From NCBI RefSeq assembly GCF_003023845.1, contig NZ_PYFT01000001.1, positions 5,704,001 through 5,768,000 of the forward strand: DNA of 64,000 bases, given 5' to 3'. The notes beneath the pieces are model-generated. The model was not told the origin of the DNA. It saw only the letters and a program-made list of their open reading frames with translations, and made no database searches. The stretch is from Adhaeribacter arboris. GTDB lineage: Bacteria > Bacteroidota > Bacteroidia > Cytophagales > Hymenobacteraceae. This document shows positions 32,679-41,156 of the stretch, one piece after another; the stretch's first letter is position 1; the number at the start of each line of letters is the position of its first letter. Position numbers and translations under genes: made by a program.

Positions 32679-33811
32679 ATAACGGGGGGCGTAGGGGAAT
32701 TACTCACGAATAATTGGCTGCTGAATTTAAGGGTTAATGATAAACTTTCCTGCTTAAAATTTAATACGAATAATTAATAATTTTGTGCTTGAAGGTTTTA
32801 GGTTCGTTGTGCAACTAATAATTACGGCATTTTAAACGATCGTACCTATCAAACTTACTTAGATTCTAATTCTTAAGCACAGCTATTTTACGGATTAATA
32901 ATTAAAATAATCCAGAATAGGAGAGGTAAATAGGACTTATCAGGCATTTTTAACCAATTCTTTCCCGCTCTGAATAAAGTAGATTTTGATATAGTAAAAA
33001 CACATATTTATTCGGGGAAACAAGCTTTTACTATTTCATTTATTTCAAGTTCAAATGTTAAATAATTGTTAATAAAATTCGATAAAATACTTGTAATTTG
33101 AAATAAATAATTTTACATTAGTTGCCACAAAGGCAAAATTTTAATCTAATAATACAATTCGACTATTTAGTTAGCTTATTGAGCAACAGGCAATAAGAGA
33201 TTTTACAAGCGTAAAGGAGTTAATTTAATTTTAAATATTAAATTAAATGTAGATGAGAGTTACTTAGTTAATGTACTTAAGCTACTAAGCTACTTAAATA
33301 CCCTAACCATTATTTATTGTTGCCCTGTTTTAGCACGTTATCTATCAATAGCGGGCTATACGGCAGAGGATAGACGGCTAAATAATTCATTTAGCTGCTT
33401 AATCATCTGTTTTGTGTTTATATGCTTTTAAATACTACCTCTTTGCCAAATTAATTCTGCTGGCAAAATCTAACTTTTTACTAGCTAATAGATTGATATG
33501 ACTCTAATTAAAGTTTCATAGAAGCTGAAAATACGTTCATTTCAAACTGTGTAGTGTAGCTAATATTAACTCATACGCTCTTAAAATTAAGAGTATTAAA
33601 ATAATTATGTCTGTATTGTAAATATTGCTAAGCTAAGTTCTATAAATTGTTTGTACAATTCTGTACTACTATAAAATCCTGCTATGCCAGAAATTTGGTG
33701 AAGGAATAACTATATGTAAAAGTAAACTTTTATTTATTAAAATTATATTTTTTAACAGAATATTAACAAATCGTTAAAGTTTGTATTTGACTAAAGTGTT
33801 TTATTAAATAG

Positions 33812-33835
33812 CATTATGCTTATAAAAGCATAATG
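33812..33835. promoter_or_regulatory. 10 bp palindrome, possible operator of the RiPP operon
   Basis: CATTATGCTT and AAGCATAATG form a perfect inverted repeat around ATAA, 142 bp before the precursor start. It could bind a dimeric regulator or form an mRNA hairpin; there is no T run. Confidence 0.4.
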
Positions 33836-33898
33836 GGTAAGAGAGGTATGCATTTATTGTACGAAAACCATAAGCTATTTGGGAATTTAAAAATATTC

Positions 33899-33955
33899 AG
33901 TACCGCGGACTGATAGGGAGAAGGCGAAAACCCTAGCAACAGAGTAGCCTATTTT
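33899..33955 (+). promoter_or_regulatory. Possibly structured 5' leader of the precursor mRNA
   Basis: TAGGG (33914-33918) can pair with CCCTA (33931-33935). AGGC (33922-33925) inside that loop can pair with GCCT (33947-33950) beyond it, forming an H-type pseudoknot, or a terminator-like stem followed by ATTTTT. Stems are only 4-5 bp, and no known riboswitch class fits well. Confidence 0.25.
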
Positions 33956-33977
33956 TCATTTTTTAAAGTTTACAATC

Positions 33978-34169
33978 ATGATTACTTTAGAAAAAGTTCT
34001 GACCGAACTAAAAGGAGAATCACTTAACGAAATTATTGCCGGTACTAGAAAAAAATGGTGTAAGAAGAAAAAACATCATTACACCACTCATGGTAGTACT
34101 ACCCGCACTACCAGAAAATGTACTACAACCAGTACAACTACTAAAAAATGTTATAAGAAGCCAGTTTAA
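33978..34169 (+). CDS. Putative RiPP precursor: double-glycine-type leader, basic Thr/Cys-rich core
   Basis: 63 residues. Residues 1-22 form a leader ending NEIIAG. Counting back from the A-G site, Leu at -12, Leu at -7, Ile at -4, Ala at -2 and Gly at -1 match the consensus cut by C39 peptidases. The 41-residue core has 13 Thr, 2 Ser, 3 Cys (full-length positions 28, 48, 58), 14 Lys/Arg and 3 His, and is strongly cationic. Residues 36-55 are nearly all Thr, Ser, Arg and Lys. The next genes encode an RRE-kinase fusion and a C39 exporter. No known family recognised. The overlapping frame starting at 34036 is not a gene there. Confidence 0.8.
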   Translation: MITLEKVLTELKGESLNEIIAGTRKKWCKKKKHHYTTHGSTTRTTRKCTTTSTTTKKCYKKPV

Positions 34170-34219
34170 TAACGTTAAGCTAGTATTTACAAGAAGTTTA
34201 TTCTTTAAATATTTAACTT

Positions 34220-34254
34220 ATTTAAGAGTGGAGCACTTTGCTCCACTCTTAAAT
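34220..34254 (+). terminator. Perfect 16 bp hairpin between precursor and kinase genes (attenuator)
   Basis: Arms 34220-34235 and 34239-34254 pair perfectly around a 3 nt loop. No long T run follows, so it would stop only part of transcription or protect the 3' end of the precursor mRNA. In bacteriocin operons such a site after the precursor gene keeps precursor levels above those of the modifying and export proteins. Confidence 0.7.
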
Positions 34255-34284
34255 TACTCTAGTCTTTATAAAAATAACTCAATC

Positions 34285-35502
34285 ATGGTAAAGTACCGAT
34301 TAGCCAATAGTATAAGTATTATTAATCCTGCTGATTCTCCGGAGGATAGCGACCTGCCGGTAGAATATCAGCATGGCAATTACATCCTGATGGATGATGC
34401 CCGGGAAAAAGAGTTCTTAATTAATGAAACGGTAAAATACTTTATCGATAAGTTTAATTCTCCTAAAACCCAAGCCGAAGTATTGCAGGAGGTTGCCTTA
34501 GATGTGCAAAGTGATGTAAAGCAAATTGAAAAGAAATGCACGGCATTTTTTAAGTTTTTGTGCAAAAGAAAGATTGTGGTTCCCGAGGATTGGGAAGAAC
34601 CGATTGCCAGCAGCGAACCTTATTTTAAAATAGGGGACGCCATGGGAGACTGGCAAATTTCCGAGATAATCGCCGATAAAAAGTACATGGATATATACCT
34701 AGCCCTTCATAAAACCAAGCTTATCCAATGTGTAATTAAGTTGCTGAACGTAAGGAAAATAGCGGATGAAGGAAGGTATTCGGATGAGTTATTGGACTTA
34801 AAGCACGAATATAGCATGCTGCAGCGATGCCAGCACATACCTTTTATCGGGCAGGCTTATGCTTTCTCCGAATCTGACCCGGAAGGAGCATATATCGTTC
34901 TGGAATATATTAAGGGAAAACCTTTATCTAAGTTTTTAAAGCAAACCGAAAATATAACCGAATCCGACTGCTATTCTATTAGTAAGGATATACTGCAGGG
35001 TTTTGCCTTATTACACGAAACAAACCTCATTCACGGCGATATTCATCCTTCTAATATTATGGTGGATGAAGACCGGAACGTGAAAATTATTGACTTAGGT
35101 CTATCTATTGAGGTAAATATAGAACAAGACGAATTAGTGAAATTTGGTGGCGTAATTTATTACATGCCGCCGGAGCGAATTAATATTTCGAGTGTAACTA
35201 AGTTTTCCAGAGAACCAGATTTTTATTCGGATGTGTACCAATTGGGTCTTATTCTCTATTATATTTTTTATAGAAAAGAGCCATTCGATGGGTTTATCTG
35301 GGAAGAACTCTCCACAAATATTAAAAAAAGCACAGTAGAATATCCGACTCTTTCCTTCTTGAATTTTCCGGTACCGGCAAAAATTATTCAAATAATAGCT
35401 AAATGCCTGCAAAAGAAACCAATAAAACGGTATGCTAATGCCGCAGCTCTGTTGAATGATTTTAAAAAGGTGGTATTCGAAACTCCTGCTTTCACTTCTT
35501 AA
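34285..35502 (+). CDS. RRE (PqqD-like) domain fused to Ser/Thr-kinase-like domain
   Basis: 405 residues from the ATG at 34285; an in-frame start at 34036 would overlap the precursor gene and is rejected. Residues ~30-100 resemble the PqqD-like winged helix (LINETVKYFIDKF...VLQEVALDV...KRKIVVPEDW), the peptide-recognition element of many RiPP enzymes. Residues ~120-395 are a protein-kinase fold: VIK (K152), helix-C E175, catalytic loop HGDIHPSN (D252, N257), DLG (D270), PPE (296-297) and SDVYQLG (D316). The Gly-rich loop lacks glycines and HRD is HGD. No lyase or cyclase domain. Predicted role: binds the leader and phosphorylates core Thr/Ser (inference). Next gene starts 9 bp after the stop. 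Confidence 0.85.
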   Translation: MVKYRLANSISIINPADSPEDSDLPVEYQHGNYILMDDAREKEFLINETVKYFIDKFNSPKTQAEVLQEVALDVQSDVKQIEKKCTAFFKFLCKRKIVVPEDWEEPIASSEPYFKIGDAMGDWQISEIIADKKYMDIYLALHKTKLIQCVIKLLNVRKIADEGRYSDELLDLKHEYSMLQRCQHIPFIGQAYAFSESDPEGAYIVLEYIKGKPLSKFLKQTENITESDCYSISKDILQGFALLHETNLIHGDIHPSNIMVDEDRNVKIIDLGLSIEVNIEQDELVKFGGVIYYMPPERINISSVTKFSREPDFYSDVYQLGLILYYIFYRKEPFDGFIWEELSTNIKKSTVEYPTLSFLNFPVPAKIIQIIAKCLQKKPIKRYANAAALLNDFKKVVFETPAFTS

Positions 35503-35511
35503 GTTAGTCGT

Positions 35512-37935
35512 ATGCACAGCGATATCGAGCAACAACTAAAGCATAACGATTGCGGCATTAGTGCAGTTAAAATTATTTATAACCTGCACAACATTCATAT
35601 TAATCGAAATTACTTAGAAGAAAATATATACGTTACCGAAAATGGGTCCAGCCTGCACGATATAAAAGATTTTTTTGACAAACAGCATTTTCAGGCGGAA
35701 TTTAACTTGCTGGATTTAAATAGCTTAAAGTTCAACAGTGATAAATTAAAAACTTTAGTTCCCTGCATTTTACCGGTTAAAAATACCCAGGGGTTGCATT
35801 ATGTGGTTATAAAAGGCTTCCGGAAAAATAAGCTGCAGATTCTGGACCCGGGCATCGGGCAATCTTACCTCTGGACTCTATCGGAGTTAATGAACAACGC
35901 TTATACCGCTACTGCTAATTACGATTATGTCAGCAACAGCAAAGTACTGCAGCAAATTATCCGGGAAGAACTTACGGCTTATCAAATTAATCCGGAAGAA
36001 GTAGAAGTTCAGAACGAGGGAGATGTTATCAATAAACTTACTTATTTTTCTTATTTAAAAGAAAACTTTGGTTTTGCGGATAGTACCGCCGAGAAAAATT
36101 TTTTAATTGATTTGCTCTTTAATCAGGAGCTGAGTGTATTGCCCAAGCAATTCCGGACTTTAAAATTACGGGAAGCGGTTTTGCGTATTACGGCCCCGGT
36201 GGTACTAACCGTTAAAAAAACCGAAGAAGTACAGTTGCCAAGCGCTAATACTGCAGCTCAGGAAAAGCCCATTAACCCTTACCGCCGGTTATTTAAGGAA
36301 CTAAAACCTTACCATAAACTTTGGGGCATTTACATTGCTACGGCCATATTTGCGGCCATGCTGGGGCAGCTTACCATTTTCAGCAGCCAGATCCTAATTG
36401 ATTACGTTCTGCCTGACTATAATATGAGTTTGATGATTTTATTTGCTCTAGGTTTAGGCCTCTTTAAAGTATTTAATCTGGTGTTGTCGCTCTATAAAAG
36501 CTTTATTTCTATTCACCTGGCCAATATTCTGGATAATTTTTTCCTAACCTCTTTTATCGAAAAACTTAATACATATTCCATCCGGTACATTCATACGTTT
36601 AGTCGCGGTGATTTAACCGAACGCATCCAGGACAGCCTGAAGCTTAAGACTTTTTTTATGCGGTTTTTTACCGGCATCCTCATCGATTCCTTTATTACGG
36701 TGTATTCCCTTATTGTATTATTTATTCTCGATTTTAAGATTACGTTTATTGTTGTAGGTATTTTAGTAATTTTTATTGTTTGGTTTTTTCTGATTACGCC
36801 CTACATCCGCGAGAACGAGAACCGCCGGTTCCTGGAAAAATCAAATTTGTTTTCTTCTCTTTTTGAAAATTTCGATGGCCTGCAGGTTATCAAATCTTTC
36901 AGGTTAGAAGGTTTATTTATGCAGCGCTTAGGACCCCGGATAAAAAATATATTGGCTATACAGCGTCGGGTAAAATACGTGAGTTTAGTTAATTCTGGTG
37001 TTATTAATTTTATCATGATTATTGCCAGTATTCTTATTCTGGTGTTTCTTTCTCAGAATGCCATTACTTCCCGTTCTATTTCTATGGGGCAAGTCATTAC
37101 CTTTATTGCTTTCTCCTCCCAGGTATTTTCTTCGGTAAGCAGTTTGTTGGATCAGAACTTAGACATTCAGGAAAACCAGATTATTTTATCCCGTTATTTC
37201 GATTTTGGCAGCAAAGAGGCTCAGGCCGCGGCCGCTACCCGGCATAGTAAAATCAGAAGCGTAGAAATTCAAACGGTTACTTTCCGGAATGTAGGTTTCT
37301 ATTATATTCCGCAACGCCCGGTTTTTTCAAACTTAAATATTGTTATAAATAAAGGAGAAATTATTAAGCTTGAGGGAAGTAATGGCGCTGGCAAAAGCAC
37401 TTTCTGCAAATTATTATCGTTGCTGTACACCCCCGACGAAGGAGAAATCCTGATAAATAACGAAAAATATTCGTTTTATAATCCAAGCTCTTTACGCAAA
37501 AAAATACTACTGGTCAGCAACGAAGATATTGTATTCAATGATACGCTGGGCTATAATATGGCTTTTTCGTATTCGGCCAGTACCTCCAAAATTTTAGACT
37601 TAGCGAAAGGAATAGGATTATACGATTTTATAGCCGAAAAAGCCGAAGGTCTTGATTTTGTGATCAATGAACAAGGTCGCAACTTATCTACGGGCCAGCG
37701 AAAAAAGATACTGATGATGCGGGCCTTTTTATCTGAAGCAGAGCTCATTATTTTAGATGAAACCTTATCCGGAATTGATGTGGAATCCAAAGAAAAAATA
37801 GAAAACTACATTAATAGCCAGACGAACCGTTCCTTCATCATTATATCGCACGAGCCGCTTTATCATATACGATTTACAAATACTTTAATCATGCAAAATG
37901 GAAGCATTGAGCAACTACAATATCAAGGAGTATAA
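35512..37935 (+). CDS. C39-peptidase ABC exporter (PCAT) for the precursor peptide
   Basis: 807 residues. The N-terminal C39 peptidase has an intact active site: Q8, C14 (KHNDCGIS), H96 (GLHYVVI) and D112 (DPGIG). An unassigned insert of ~110 residues (~140-250) separates it from the membrane domain (~265-560, six helices). The ATPase has Walker A GSNGAGKST, signature LSTGQRKK, Walker B LIILDET and H-loop IIISHEP. PCATs cut leaders after a double-glycine-type site and export the core, matching the AG site of the small upstream gene. The insert is longer than in typical PCATs. The adaptor gene overlaps its 3' end by 38 bp. Confidence 0.93.
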   Translation: MHSDIEQQLKHNDCGISAVKIIYNLHNIHINRNYLEENIYVTENGSSLHDIKDFFDKQHFQAEFNLLDLNSLKFNSDKLKTLVPCILPVKNTQGLHYVVIKGFRKNKLQILDPGIGQSYLWTLSELMNNAYTATANYDYVSNSKVLQQIIREELTAYQINPEEVEVQNEGDVINKLTYFSYLKENFGFADSTAEKNFLIDLLFNQELSVLPKQFRTLKLREAVLRITAPVVLTVKKTEEVQLPSANTAAQEKPINPYRRLFKELKPYHKLWGIYIATAIFAAMLGQLTIFSSQILIDYVLPDYNMSLMILFALGLGLFKVFNLVLSLYKSFISIHLANILDNFFLTSFIEKLNTYSIRYIHTFSRGDLTERIQDSLKLKTFFMRFFTGILIDSFITVYSLIVLFILDFKITFIVVGILVIFIVWFFLITPYIRENENRRFLEKSNLFSSLFENFDGLQVIKSFRLEGLFMQRLGPRIKNILAIQRRVKYVSLVNSGVINFIMIIASILILVFLSQNAITSRSISMGQVITFIAFSSQVFSSVSSLLDQNLDIQENQIILSRYFDFGSKEAQAAAATRHSKIRSVEIQTVTFRNVGFYYIPQRPVFSNLNIVINKGEIIKLEGSNGAGKSTFCKLLSLLYTPDEGEILINNEKYSFYNPSSLRKKILLVSNEDIVFNDTLGYNMAFSYSASTSKILDLAKGIGLYDFIAEKAEGLDFVINEQGRNLSTGQRKKILMMRAFLSEAELIILDETLSGIDVESKEKIENYINSQTNRSFIIISHEPLYHIRFTNTLIMQNGSIEQLQYQGV

Positions 37936-39118
37936 TTTTACCATTTGGTTTTTCCGGTTGCTGATGGCCATAGCGGCTACGCTTATTCTGCTGGTTTTTG
38001 CTTTGCAGATAAACGATGCCGTAGCTATAAGAGAAGGCGAAATAATTGCCACCAATCCGCAATCGGATTACAAAGCGCCATTTGAAGCGCAAATTGTAAA
38101 AATTAATGTGAAGGAAGGGCAGCCGGTTAAAGCAGGCGATACGCTGCTCATAATGCAAAACCTGGATTTTCTGGAGCAACAGGCTAAAACCAGCACCGAA
38201 ATGGAATACCTGCAAAAGAAAATTGAATCTACCTCGGTCCTCCTGGATGCGGTGCAAAAAAAGCAAGCGGCCAATGAGCAAACCAGAGCCATCAGTGCTA
38301 AAAAATACCGATTAGATATTAGCCGGCTTACCGCTGAACTGAAAACCTTGGAGGAGCAACACGGCTTACAGAAAGAACGCTTGGCTTCGGCGCAAGAAAA
38401 ATACCTAGGCGATGCGGTATTGTTTAAAAAAGATATGCTCAGTAAGTATGAATATAATTCTACGAAAGATGCTTTCCTGGCTTTAAAAGAAAATTTAACC
38501 AACCTGAAAAGTGAACGAAACAAGTTGCTGGCGGAAAAAAGTTTGGCTTACAACAACTTTACAAATGAGCAAAACAACCTTTTGTTGAATAAACTGCAAC
38601 TAGACGAAAATACCCAGGAACTACTGCAAACCAAAAACGATTTGGAAGGCCAACTGCTGCAAGCTAAAGAAACGCTGCATAAAGTAGATACCGAGCTAAA
38701 AAAGCAGTACGTAGTTGCCACCAACGCCGGCATTGTTAATTATTTATTTAGTACGAAGCTAGCCAGTAATTTAATTTCCCGAGGCGATTTACTCGTGAGC
38801 ATTGCTCCTACTACTATTTCGTATTACGCCAAAGTTATTGTGCCCGAAAGAGATATGCCTTACGTGAAAGCGGGCCAGGAAGCGCGCCTGAAACTGGATG
38901 CTTATTACCATTTAGAGTACGGTATGATCCGGGGCAAAGTCCTTTATTTAGCCGAAAGAAAAGAAAGTGAAAAGTTTTATGCCTTAGTGCAATTGCTGCA
39001 AACCAATCGGTACAAGTTAAAGTCCGGTTATACTATTCACGGCGAAATAGTAGTGCAGCGGCTACCTTTGTATAAGTTTTTCATCAAAAAAATATTTAAA
39101 CGATTCGATAAGGTATGA
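37898..39118 (+). CDS. HlyD-type periplasmic adaptor (membrane fusion protein)
   Basis: 406 residues with one N-terminal membrane helix (~18-40), a lipoyl-like half (APFEAQIVKINVKEGQPVKAGD), a long coiled coil (~85-270, rich in Leu, Lys, Glu, Gln) and a second lipoyl and beta-barrel part (YVVATNAGIVNYLF; YYAKVIVPERDMPYVKAGQE). It would bridge the inner-membrane ABC exporter to the outer-membrane channel. The start overlaps the exporter gene by 38 bp; a later Met at codon 23 is possible but would cut into the membrane helix. Its stop overlaps the next start (ATGA). Confidence 0.9.
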   Translation: MEALSNYNIKEYNFTIWFFRLLMAIAATLILLVFALQINDAVAIREGEIIATNPQSDYKAPFEAQIVKINVKEGQPVKAGDTLLIMQNLDFLEQQAKTSTEMEYLQKKIESTSVLLDAVQKKQAANEQTRAISAKKYRLDISRLTAELKTLEEQHGLQKERLASAQEKYLGDAVLFKKDMLSKYEYNSTKDAFLALKENLTNLKSERNKLLAEKSLAYNNFTNEQNNLLLNKLQLDENTQELLQTKNDLEGQLLQAKETLHKVDTELKKQYVVATNAGIVNYLFSTKLASNLISRGDLLVSIAPTTISYYAKVIVPERDMPYVKAGQEARLKLDAYYHLEYGMIRGKVLYLAERKESEKFYALVQLLQTNRYKLKSGYTIHGEIVVQRLPLYKFFIKKIFKRFDKV

Positions 39119-40440
39119 GGCGCTTTTTGGTTTTTCTGCCGTTTATGCTTTTCATTCCTTTGTTCTCTTTTGGGCAAAAGCAATATACCCTGGATGATTG
39201 CTACCGCATAGCTTTAGAGAACAATACTACCATTAAACGTGCCCAGAACGATATTAATACAAATGCTCTGGACCGGAAAACAGCCCAATACAGTATATTG
39301 CCATCTTTGGCTTATTCGGTAAACCATGATTTTTCTTATGGTAAAAATATCGACCCCGTCACCAATGTTTTTGTTCGCGATCGGTTTAGCGGTGGTTCTA
39401 CCGGGTTGAGTCTTAATCTTGAATTATTTTCGGGATTTAGGAGATTAAATACCATTAAACAAAGTGCCTATAGCTTGCAGGCTGCTAATTATGCCAAAAA
39501 AAGAATCGAGCTTGAATTGCTTTCTAACATTACCCAAAGTTATTCCCGGCTTTTACTGGATAAAGAACAGGCTGCCATTGGCCGGAACAATATGCAAACA
39601 ACTACTAAAACCCTGGTTATTATTAAAGAAAAAATTAAAACCGGCCGACTTACCAAGTACGAACATTATACTTTTAATGCCCGGCTCAACAGCGAAAAGG
39701 CTGATTTAATTACTGTACAAAACGATTCGTTAGCTGCTTTGCAAGAGTTAAAACAATTTCTAAATTTTTCCTACAAAGATGAGTTAATTATTGCTTCTAT
39801 TGATACCACTTTGCTAAAAGATATTTTTAACACGCCTATTAATGCTACAGAATTTATAGAAACGATTTTAAAAACCCATCCTGCCATAAAGGAGGCTCAA
39901 ATGAACGAACAGGTAGCTCGACTAGGGGTAAAGGTGGCAAAAAGCAGTTTGTTACCTTCTCTTTCGGCTGGAGCAGGTATTGCTTCGAATTATAACAGCA
40001 ATGAGACAATAACGGATGGTAGCACCATGCCCTTAAATAAGCAGTTGAATAATAACTTGGGTCAGAATATAGGTATTAACCTGGATGTTCCCCTTTTTTC
40101 TAAAAAGGAGTTTGTTAACAGCGTAAAAAAAGAAAAGATAAACGTTTCGAATGCGCAACTGGCTACTAAAGAAGCGGAGAACACGGTGATTAGTAACACC
40201 TTGCAGCTAATAAATGAATTTAATTCGGCTAAGCAAAAATATAAGGCTACGCTGGCGGCCTGGCAACAAAACAATTTGTCGTATAATCTTTACGCCGAAA
40301 AATATAAACTAGGCCAAATCAGTTCGGTGGAGCTATTAACGGCTCGCGATATTTTGAATGCTTCTGCCGCTACTTACCTGCAATCTAAACTCGAATTGTT
40401 TTTTCGGTATCAGCTTTTACTGCTGTTAAAAACTTATTAA
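39115..40440 (+). CDS. TolC-family outer-membrane efflux channel
   Basis: 441 residues. A signal peptide (ending LFSFGQ) is followed by two outer-membrane-efflux repeats, each with long alpha-helical hairpins (YTLDDCYRIALENNTTIKRA near the start is the classic opening). It starts 4 bp before the end of the adaptor gene, so the two are translationally coupled. It completes a three-part type I-like secretion machine for the peptide encoded at 33978-34169 and is the last gene of the operon. No strong terminator was found in the 56 bp before the convergent methyltransferase gene. Confidence 0.9.
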   Translation: MRRFLVFLPFMLFIPLFSFGQKQYTLDDCYRIALENNTTIKRAQNDINTNALDRKTAQYSILPSLAYSVNHDFSYGKNIDPVTNVFVRDRFSGGSTGLSLNLELFSGFRRLNTIKQSAYSLQAANYAKKRIELELLSNITQSYSRLLLDKEQAAIGRNNMQTTTKTLVIIKEKIKTGRLTKYEHYTFNARLNSEKADLITVQNDSLAALQELKQFLNFSYKDELIIASIDTTLLKDIFNTPINATEFIETILKTHPAIKEAQMNEQVARLGVKVAKSSLLPSLSAGAGIASNYNSNETITDGSTMPLNKQLNNNLGQNIGINLDVPLFSKKEFVNSVKKEKINVSNAQLATKEAENTVISNTLQLINEFNSAKQKYKATLAAWQQNNLSYNLYAEKYKLGQISSVELLTARDILNASAATYLQSKLELFFRYQLLLLLKTY

Positions 40441-40496: not shown

Positions 40497-41156
40497 TTAA
40501 ATATCCTTAAAGGAAAAGTGGTATACCTGCGACCGGATAAAGCCACTATAAAAGTATTTAGTGTACATTAGCTGCCCGGGTAATCTTTGAAATAAATTAT
40601 CAAGATGGGGTAGAGTATGCGTTTGCAGATTACAAAGTTTTCCAAAAAAAGTATACATAGCTTGGGTCAAATTATGTTGCCACCATTGTTCTTTTCTACT
40701 CCGTGTTTGATCAATAAAGAAATCGGCGACTAGCCAATAGCTATTTGGTTTTAAATGTTGGTACAGTCGCTGCATCATAGGAATAAGCAAATTTTCGGGG
40801 TACAAGTCCAGCACGAAGGGCGTAAAAATAACATTAAACTTTTCATCCGCCCTTAAATCGGCTTCGGTACCCTGCCGGAAGGTTACTTGTAATTGATTAG
40901 CGGGTAAGCCGGCGCATGTTTTTCTGGCTCGGGTTAACATGCGAGAGGAGAGTTCCAGGTAAGTAATTTGTAAAGGTATTTGTAATGTAACTATATCTGG
41001 CAGCAACCAACCCGTGCCGCCACCCACCAGCAGAACAGAAGCATCAGCCGGAACAAAAGATAAAAGCGCCACCTGCGATTGGCGGATAGCGCTGCCAAAA
41101 ACTAATCGGGCTAAAGGATCATAAAACCAACTAACCCGGTCGAAGGAGGCGTTCAT
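40497..41156 (-). CDS. Class I SAM-dependent methyltransferase
   Basis: 219 residues. SAM-binding motif I is LLVGGGTGWLLPDIV (~residues 40-54), with ITYLELSSRML as the acidic motif II loop and NVIFTPFVLDLYPE as motif IV. Resembles UbiE-like small-molecule methyltransferases (opens FDRVSWFYDPLARLVFG). It faces the RiPP operon convergently, so a link to peptide maturation is not supported by arrangement. Substrate unknown. Confidence 0.85.
   Translation of the reverse strand: MNASFDRVSWFYDPLARLVFGSAIRQSQVALLSFVPADASVLLVGGGTGWLLPDIVTLQIPLQITYLELSSRMLTRARKTCAGLPANQLQVTFRQGTEADLRADEKFNVIFTPFVLDLYPENLLIPMMQRLYQHLKPNSYWLVADFFIDQTRSRKEQWWQHNLTQAMYTFFGKLCNLQTHTLPHLDNLFQRLPGQLMYTKYFYSGFIRSQVYHFSFKDI

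Follow-up and report, generated by a model that had tools for sequence, protein, structure and literature searches.

Linear peptides that retain phosphate groups have been described for several pathways of ribosomally synthesized and post-translationally modified peptides (RiPPs). Phospeptin is a poly-phosphorylated linear final product, matured by a lanthipeptide-synthetase dehydration domain whose key residues are mutated (PMC9259500, 2022). The Linear Polyphosphorylated Peptides (LPPs) of Bacillota are associated with an HprK-like kinase and a discrete RiPP recognition element (RRE) (PMC13381572, 2026). In phosphorylated lasso peptides of the paeninodin type, the precursor is phosphorylated by the cluster kinase PadeK (PMC9266682), which is HprK-like (PMC13381572), and phosphorylated lantibiotics are also on record (PMC13219514). 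For class V lanthipeptides, the kinase CaoK alone leaves up to four phosphates on the precursor, and dehydration needs the lyase CaoY (PMC9486802); therefore, a kinase without a lyase should stop at the phosphate. In this study, we analyzed a stretch of 64,000 nucleotides (nt) from Adhaeribacter arboris (contig NZ_PYFT01000001.1, positions 5,704,001 to 5,768,000; hereafter the window), which harbors a conserved five-gene operon at 33978-40440. We consider it likely that this is a RiPP operon with an RRE-fused Ser/Thr kinase as its sole modifying enzyme, and that a linear peptide is exported in phosphorylated form.

All five open reading frames (ORFs) lie on one strand, in the arrangement first proposed by a reading of the sequence alone (the sequence-only reading). 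The intergenic distances are 115, 9, -38 and -4 nt, so that the last four genes are 9 bp apart or overlap, as had been claimed. The coding features, with lengths in amino acids (aa), are:

33978-34169, plus strand: precursor peptide, 63 aa, with a leader conserved in nine of ten loci and a variable core
33978-34043, plus strand: precursor leader, residues 1-22, ending in AG
34044-34166, plus strand: precursor core, residues 23-63
34285-35502, plus strand: RRE-kinase fusion, 405 aa from the ATG at 34285 (Pkinase E=1e-37, RRE model, Foldseek)
34285-34593, plus strand: predicted RRE, about residues 1-103 of the fusion; the kinase domain covers about residues 117-395
35512-37935, plus strand: C39-peptidase ATP-binding cassette (ABC) exporter of the peptidase-containing type (PCAT), 807 aa (Pfam Peptidase_C39, ABC_membrane, ABC_tran)
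37898-39118, plus strand: HlyD-type periplasmic adaptor, 406 aa (HlyD_3 E=3e-13, type_I_hlyD E=5e-26)
39115-40440, plus strand: TolC-type outer-membrane channel, 441 aa (OEP E=1e-44, type_I_sec_TolC E=3e-32)

Phospeptin resembles the system described here in its single maturase, the linear poly-phosphorylated product (predicted for our locus) and the lack of dehydration, but it relies on a LanM-type dehydration domain instead of a PknB-type kinase fused to an RRE. The absence of a lanthionine dehydratase domain among the kinase-protein matches (Pfam; best 25 of 34 NCBIfam matches) also separates the two. LPP clusters share with our locus an RRE and a kinase in one cluster, precursors with a conserved N-terminus and variable C-terminus, a linear phosphate-bearing product and a dedicated exporter. 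However, where LPP clusters combine an HprK-like kinase, a discrete RRE, an SpI-like peptidase and a nucleoside triphosphate (NTP) transferase, our operon encodes a PknB-like Pkinase with a fused RRE, a C39 exporter that would cut the precursor, and cores with 6-15 Ser/Thr among basic residues; no NTP transferase is found among its five genes. Paeninodin-type lassos likewise keep a phosphate set by a cluster kinase, whereas the HprK-like kinase, the restriction to a C-terminal Ser and the lasso macrolactam have no counterpart here. CaoK/LanK, LanKC and LanL also phosphorylate Ser/Thr of a leader-bearing precursor, but CaoK is an APH-type kinase working with CaoY (PMC9486802), and LanKC and LanL carry lyase and cyclase domains, with no identifiable RRE in class II-V enzymes according to PMC10604976. 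The exporter itself is ordinary: its domains, catalytic triad, GG-type leader and tripartite set are those of C39 PCATs working together with HlyD and TolC. Neither RRE-Finder (PMC7470986) nor its 2025 update (PMC12710340) uses the word 'kinase' in the main text, the accessible portion of a survey of Bacteroidales RiPP clusters mentions histidine kinases only (PMC10352776), and no RRE-kinase fusion, with or without a C39 exporter, was found in the open-access literature searched, a scope outside which most subscription papers fall. The best reading is an enzymatic variant of linear phosphorylated RiPPs that is not categorically new; given these precedents, the new RiPP class announced by the sequence-only reading was an overstatement.

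The comparison is based on ten loci, all from Bacteroidota: the window, one same-genus genome (G003), two from Segetibacter and six from relatives of Segetibacter. Among seven same-genus genomes only G003 gave a full-length kinase match, and it carries the whole operon with the same downstream neighbors as the window. A contig scan of genomes led to a Segetibacter metagenome-assembled genome (MAG; L045, SegMAG) and to Segetibacter koreensis DSM 18137 (L046, Skor). Searching 294 genomes of Segetibacter's family added G582, G776 and G569, and 119 relatives of G776 added G801, G799 and G810; 147 relatives of G582 yielded no further locus. The system is rare: two overlapping samples, 395 genomes from the phylum (E<=0.001) and 395 from the class (E<=1e-6), gave no match beyond the genome of the window itself, with at most 12 candidates scored per genome. 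The set of ten leaves out G691, G559, G620, G522 and G535 (E=0.004-0.01) and the Lachnospiraceae kinase match L047. Weak RRE matches in G510 and G804 (L072, L073) were dropped, as their ORF lists contain no kinase, exporter or leader-like ORF.

In all ten loci a small precursor gene lies directly upstream of the kinase gene and an ABC exporter gene directly downstream. HlyD is present in ten (cut by the contig end in G776), and TolC in eight; the contig ends in G776, and none is adjacent in G810. Homologues without a precursor, which would have contradicted the sequence-only reading, do not occur among the ten RRE-bearing kinases; many kinase-only relatives fall outside this count. The gene-level hallmark of a RiPP operon is thus present in 10/10 loci: the gene for the modifying enzyme adjoins that of a small precursor whose core varies and whose leader is conserved in nine loci and distant in G810. 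Gene order and a related leader in nine other loci are more than chance. In G799 (L070 2148-8098, minus strand) the kinase is broken into two reading frames, no C39 match is obtained in the exporter ORF and TolC is encoded by a short ORF, which may reflect decay or an assembly error; residue counts out of nine omit this interrupted kinase. According to the ORF tables, no further gene is shared by all groups as a neighbor of the operon.

The window precursor begins with MITLEKVLTELKGESLNEIIAG; the 41 residues of the core that comes next include 13 Thr, 2 Ser, 14 Lys/Arg, 3 His and 3 Cys but not a single acidic residue, in agreement with the 15 Thr/Ser and 3 Cys counted before. Nine of the ten leaders fit M-I/L-T-L-E/D-K-...-N-E-I/V-x-x-G; that of G810 is a distant version ending in RAG. 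The ten cores are hardly alignable and yet alike in composition, with 6-15 Ser/Thr, 8-14 Lys/Arg and 0-1 acidic residues (five in G810); a striking example is the core of G569, KHGKTKTRTKTKTKTRTRTRTRKHGTKYY. The number of Ser/Thr is within 3 of the net Lys/Arg charge in 9/10 cores. Cys residues occur in the cores of the window (3), G003 (4), SegMAG (3), Skor (3) and G810 (2), and are missing from those of G582, G776, G569, G801 and G799. Ser/Thr and basic residues alternate more often than in composition shuffles in the cores of G569, G801 and G799 (p<0.01) and of G003 and G776 (p ~0.03; all uncorrected). They do not in G582, SegMAG, Skor, the window and G810, and in the last three of these alternation falls below the shuffled mean. 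An alternating K/T pattern was therefore discarded as a family signature, and composition is the shared trait. Among 121 ATG ORFs of 45-91 aa in the window, the precursor is the only one whose tail has at least 65% S/T/K/R and no D/E, a threshold chosen after seeing the precursor and not reached by six of the ten cores. Seven precursors scanned against NCBIfam and Pfam matched no known family, apart from one weak ComC match (E=0.048).

The kinase half of the fusion protein matches Pkinase (PF00069, E=1e-37), as do all seven members of set A8, and its nearest solved structures are StkP and PknB-type kinases. Lys152, Glu175, Asp252, Asn257, Asp270 and Glu297 are retained in 9/9 uninterrupted kinases, pointing to an intact active site. 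In the same nine, HGD replaces HRD, which makes them non-RD kinases; such kinases are generally independent of activation-loop phosphorylation. The claim that an RRE is fused to this kinase was weak at sequence level and is upheld by structure prediction. PqqD (PF05402) matches the window protein over profile positions 2-67 of 67 at E=0.03 and 15.1 bits, below the cut-off of 23.4; G810, the member that diverges most, comes closer with E=0.00096 and 19.9 bits and also stays below it. The full-length model of the protein serves as a hint only, and the RRE region (residues 1-105) was therefore modeled alone, giving a predicted local distance difference test (pLDDT) score of 82.4 (50-66 in the other four models). 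The top Foldseek ranks of this model in the PDB are TbiB1, PqqD, a lasso B1 protein (6jx3), TigE, MibB, MccB and TruD, all of which we take to be RRE carriers. The best match is TbiB1 with its leader (E=1.2e-3, probability 1.00, TM 0.64), the lasso B1 protein was also solved with leader, and no match lies at E<=0.001. An RRE profile run against PDB sequences gave five matches (best E=0.37), none of them an RRE. Because Foldseek ranks RRE proteins first, we accept the modeled domain as an RRE on the basis of its fold.

In the exporter, the C39 domain spans about residues 4-120 of 807, and its Cys14, His96 and Asp112, the triad predicted to be intact, are retained together with the Walker residues in 9/9 exporters. 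In a plasmid search with the exporter, each of the best 5000 records listed had an identity below 60%.

No lyase or cyclase is encoded in any of the operons, as had been noted for the window, and none was found in the part of the flanking ORFs scanned with Pfam. Pfam and NCBIfam assign no such domain to the 405-aa protein either, which separates it from LanKC and LanL (classes III and IV); such a domain in the fusion would have spoken against the sequence-only reading. The HopA1-type lyase of class V (PF17914) is found in 0/9 genomes and 1/14 control genomes. The LanC family (PF05147) occurs in one of seven genomes, S. koreensis, within a separate class I lanthipeptide cluster (L086 356-7491, minus strand; precursor ending in ...NQRFGG plus a Cys core, LanC, LanB and a C39 exporter). 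Since lyase and cyclase are missing and half of the cores are free of Cys, we infer a linear phosphorylated product. Three outcomes had been left open by the sequence-only reading: a product that stays phosphorylated is now favored, a distant lyase is disfavored by the searches for HopA1 (nine genomes) and LanC (seven genomes), and thioether rings are disfavored because five cores without Cys argue against rings as the shared chemistry.

According to the pathway we propose, the N-terminal RRE would bind the conserved 22-residue leader and present the core, and the kinase would phosphorylate Thr/Ser of the polybasic core. The C39 domain of the exporter would then cut after AG/GG, and the ABC-HlyD-TolC conduit would export the phosphopeptide. 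Neither phosphate elimination nor ring closure would follow.

A comparison of the window with G003 bears on the target of the kinase. Amino acid identity is 94% for the exporter, 86% for HlyD, 80% for TolC and only 61% for the kinase; the window core is Thr-rich and the G003 core Ser-rich, while the leaders are not strongly different. The kinase/exporter ratio of ln-identities is 7.3 for this pair versus 1.3-2.4 in 35 other pairs. In 200-nt bins, DNA identity is 50-78% at 33,600-35,600, a section that includes the identical 5' element, and 72-90% between 35,600 and 40,400. This pattern suits a swapped or fast-evolving core-plus-kinase cassette, and the joint difference of core and kinase therefore suggests a kinase acting on the core.

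Several observations weigh against phosphorylation of the core by an RRE-guided kinase. The downstream methyltransferase is equally diverged between the window and G003 (61%), and the kinase/exporter outlier may be due to gene replacement rather than co-adaptation. The RRE signal at sequence level is below cut-off in every member seen, with PqqD at E<=1 in two of the seven members of set A8, and the full-length AlphaFold model of the kinase protein is poor (pLDDT 47.6). Alternation exceeds composition shuffles in only 5/10 cores, and a looser count of Ser/Thr adjoining a basic residue does so in G799 only (p=0.04); on both counts the window core is below expectation (p>0.99), as is G810 (p ~0.94-0.95). 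The kinase could also target the leader, the exporter or something else. Finally, the search for a lyase or cyclase in trans covered HopA1 in nine genomes and LanC in seven, and OspF/LanKC-type lyases were not searched.

An unmodified cationic bacteriocin or signal could be produced if the kinase were regulatory and timed cutting and export by RRE-guided phosphorylation, either at the leader (Thr3, Thr9 or Ser15 in the window) or at the exporter. Leader Thr3 is present in 9/10 precursors, and polycationic cores resemble antimicrobial peptides. We regard this as unlikely, as 6-15 Ser/Thr are kept in otherwise hardly alignable cores, and between the window and G003 both kinase and core have diverged, unlike leader and exporter. 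Quite improbable, too, is that the phosphates are intermediates and a lyase, perhaps with a cyclase, encoded elsewhere turns them into dehydro-residues or (methyl)lanthionines, in the manner of class III-V lanthipeptides. LanL and LanKC models do match the kinase domain, with only their own kinase part (E=5e-21 and 1e-15, far below cut-off), and five of the ten cores contain Cys; however, a PknB-type model scores better (5e-35), HopA1 and LanC families are absent from 9/9 and 6/7 genomes, respectively, half of the cores have no Cys, and according to PMC10604976 no RRE is identifiable in the core enzymes of classes II-V. That the kinase fold performs other peptide chemistry, such as AMP transfer or cyclization like the kinase-fold aminovinyl-cysteine (AviCys) cyclases, of which one is reported in lanthipeptides (PMC12291118), is very improbable, because Lys152, Glu175, Asp252, Asn257 and Asp270 are kept in 9/9 as for ordinary phosphotransfer.

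If the exported peptide is indeed linear and phosphorylated, a charge switch is a possible, rather doubtful, function. Since the number of Ser/Thr approximates the net Lys/Arg charge, phosphorylation would neutralize or invert the core charge; cores of +6 to +14 would become neutral or anionic polyampholytes, at -4 to -22 with all sites phosphorylated. Potentially, the kinase masks a membrane- or nucleic acid-binding peptide inside the producer, to be unmasked by phosphatases outside. Alternatively, the exported Lys/phospho-Thr polymer might be a mineral- or metal-binding scaffold, for which diatom silaffins offer a parallel.

Two RNA features accompany the operon:

33916-33949, plus strand: candidate H-type pseudoknot with stems GGG/CCC and GGC/GCC, an RNA element of the 5' leader 28 nt ahead of the precursor start
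34220-34254, plus strand: 16-bp intergenic hairpin between precursor and kinase (gap fold z=-6.5)

The 5' element is identical in G003, and the same layout is seen by eye in 9/10 loci. In a hand alignment of eight related rows, all 24 cells of the second stem are paired versus 18.7 in shuffles, a value reached in 67 of 10,000; this stem changes from GC to AU and from GC to CG with pairing kept, and the first stem is invariant. Pair counts from a five-sequence RNA alignment alone were equaled by 235 of 500 shuffles, and the covariation support for the candidate pseudoknot is suggestive only. The Rfam model DUF805b (RF02914) scores the window element at 17.5 bits (E=0.0042), short of the gathering score of 35.6, and that of L059 at 11.9 bits; L070 has no match. 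The exact variant occurs in 2/118 genomes. Weaker matches (E 5e-4 to 0.13) precede unrelated genes, six of seven within 25 nt of an ORF start, and the element was therefore rejected as an operon-specific switch. These lie at L086 7512-7552, L087 3255-3297, L088 6686-6727, L089 3012-3042, L090 5691-5730, L091 5063-5104 and L092 5233-5274; the ORFs behind them include small, apparently exported proteins, and the class I lanthipeptide precursor of S. koreensis is also preceded by a DUF805b-like element. A strong hairpin (12-16 bp) is present in the precursor-kinase gap of 10/10 loci with unrelated sequences (gap z -2.4 to -6.5) and is likely an attenuator or RNA-processing element. Such a hairpin is expected to keep precursor RNA in excess of enzyme RNA.

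Some neighboring genes deserve mention. The methyltransferase (40497-41156, minus strand) and an upstream hydrolase were excluded from the operon, being on the opposite strand and not seen in Segetibacter or the other non-genus loci. This convergent methyltransferase corresponds to L013 4564-5223 in the other same-genus genome; between the two genomes, identity is 80-94% for the exporter genes and for the gene that follows downstream, and the methyltransferase region is possibly a recombination hot spot. The group of G776, G569, G801 and G799 has a sigma-70-like factor gene near the operon, supported by Pfam in L060 and by eye elsewhere (L060 3430-8533; L061 11805-17279; L069 9080-9703; L070 8789-10178). 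Genes for a protein of 260 aa, a TPR-CHAT protein (CHAT E=1e-53 and 2e-51) and a protein of 294-330 aa accompany it in G776 and G569, and may form a regulatory or effector module. L071 8375-12973 (minus strand), immediately upstream of the gene for the Lys/Ser-rich precursor in G810, encodes a large secreted protein that combines a lysyl oxidase domain (Pfam E=2e-26) with a secretion sorting tail, a possible partner for the Lys-rich peptide at this one locus. In the Segetibacter MAG, L045 2400-5861 (minus strand) encodes a large secreted SdrD-B-repeat protein; tandem repeats rich in Cys and His make up its tail, along with a secretion sorting domain.

If the proposed pathway is true, it would constitute a further enzymatic route to phosphate-bearing exported peptides, beside LanM-type and HprK-type enzymes. 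In the open-access literature searched, it is the first case found of a PknB-like Ser/Thr kinase with its own RRE. With some 400 residues, and guided by the leader to a core that can vary, such an enzyme would also be a simple tool for the dense phosphorylation of designed basic peptides. For the bacteria themselves, the cores pose the question of why peptides with Ser/Thr and Lys/Arg in a near one-to-one ratio would be secreted.

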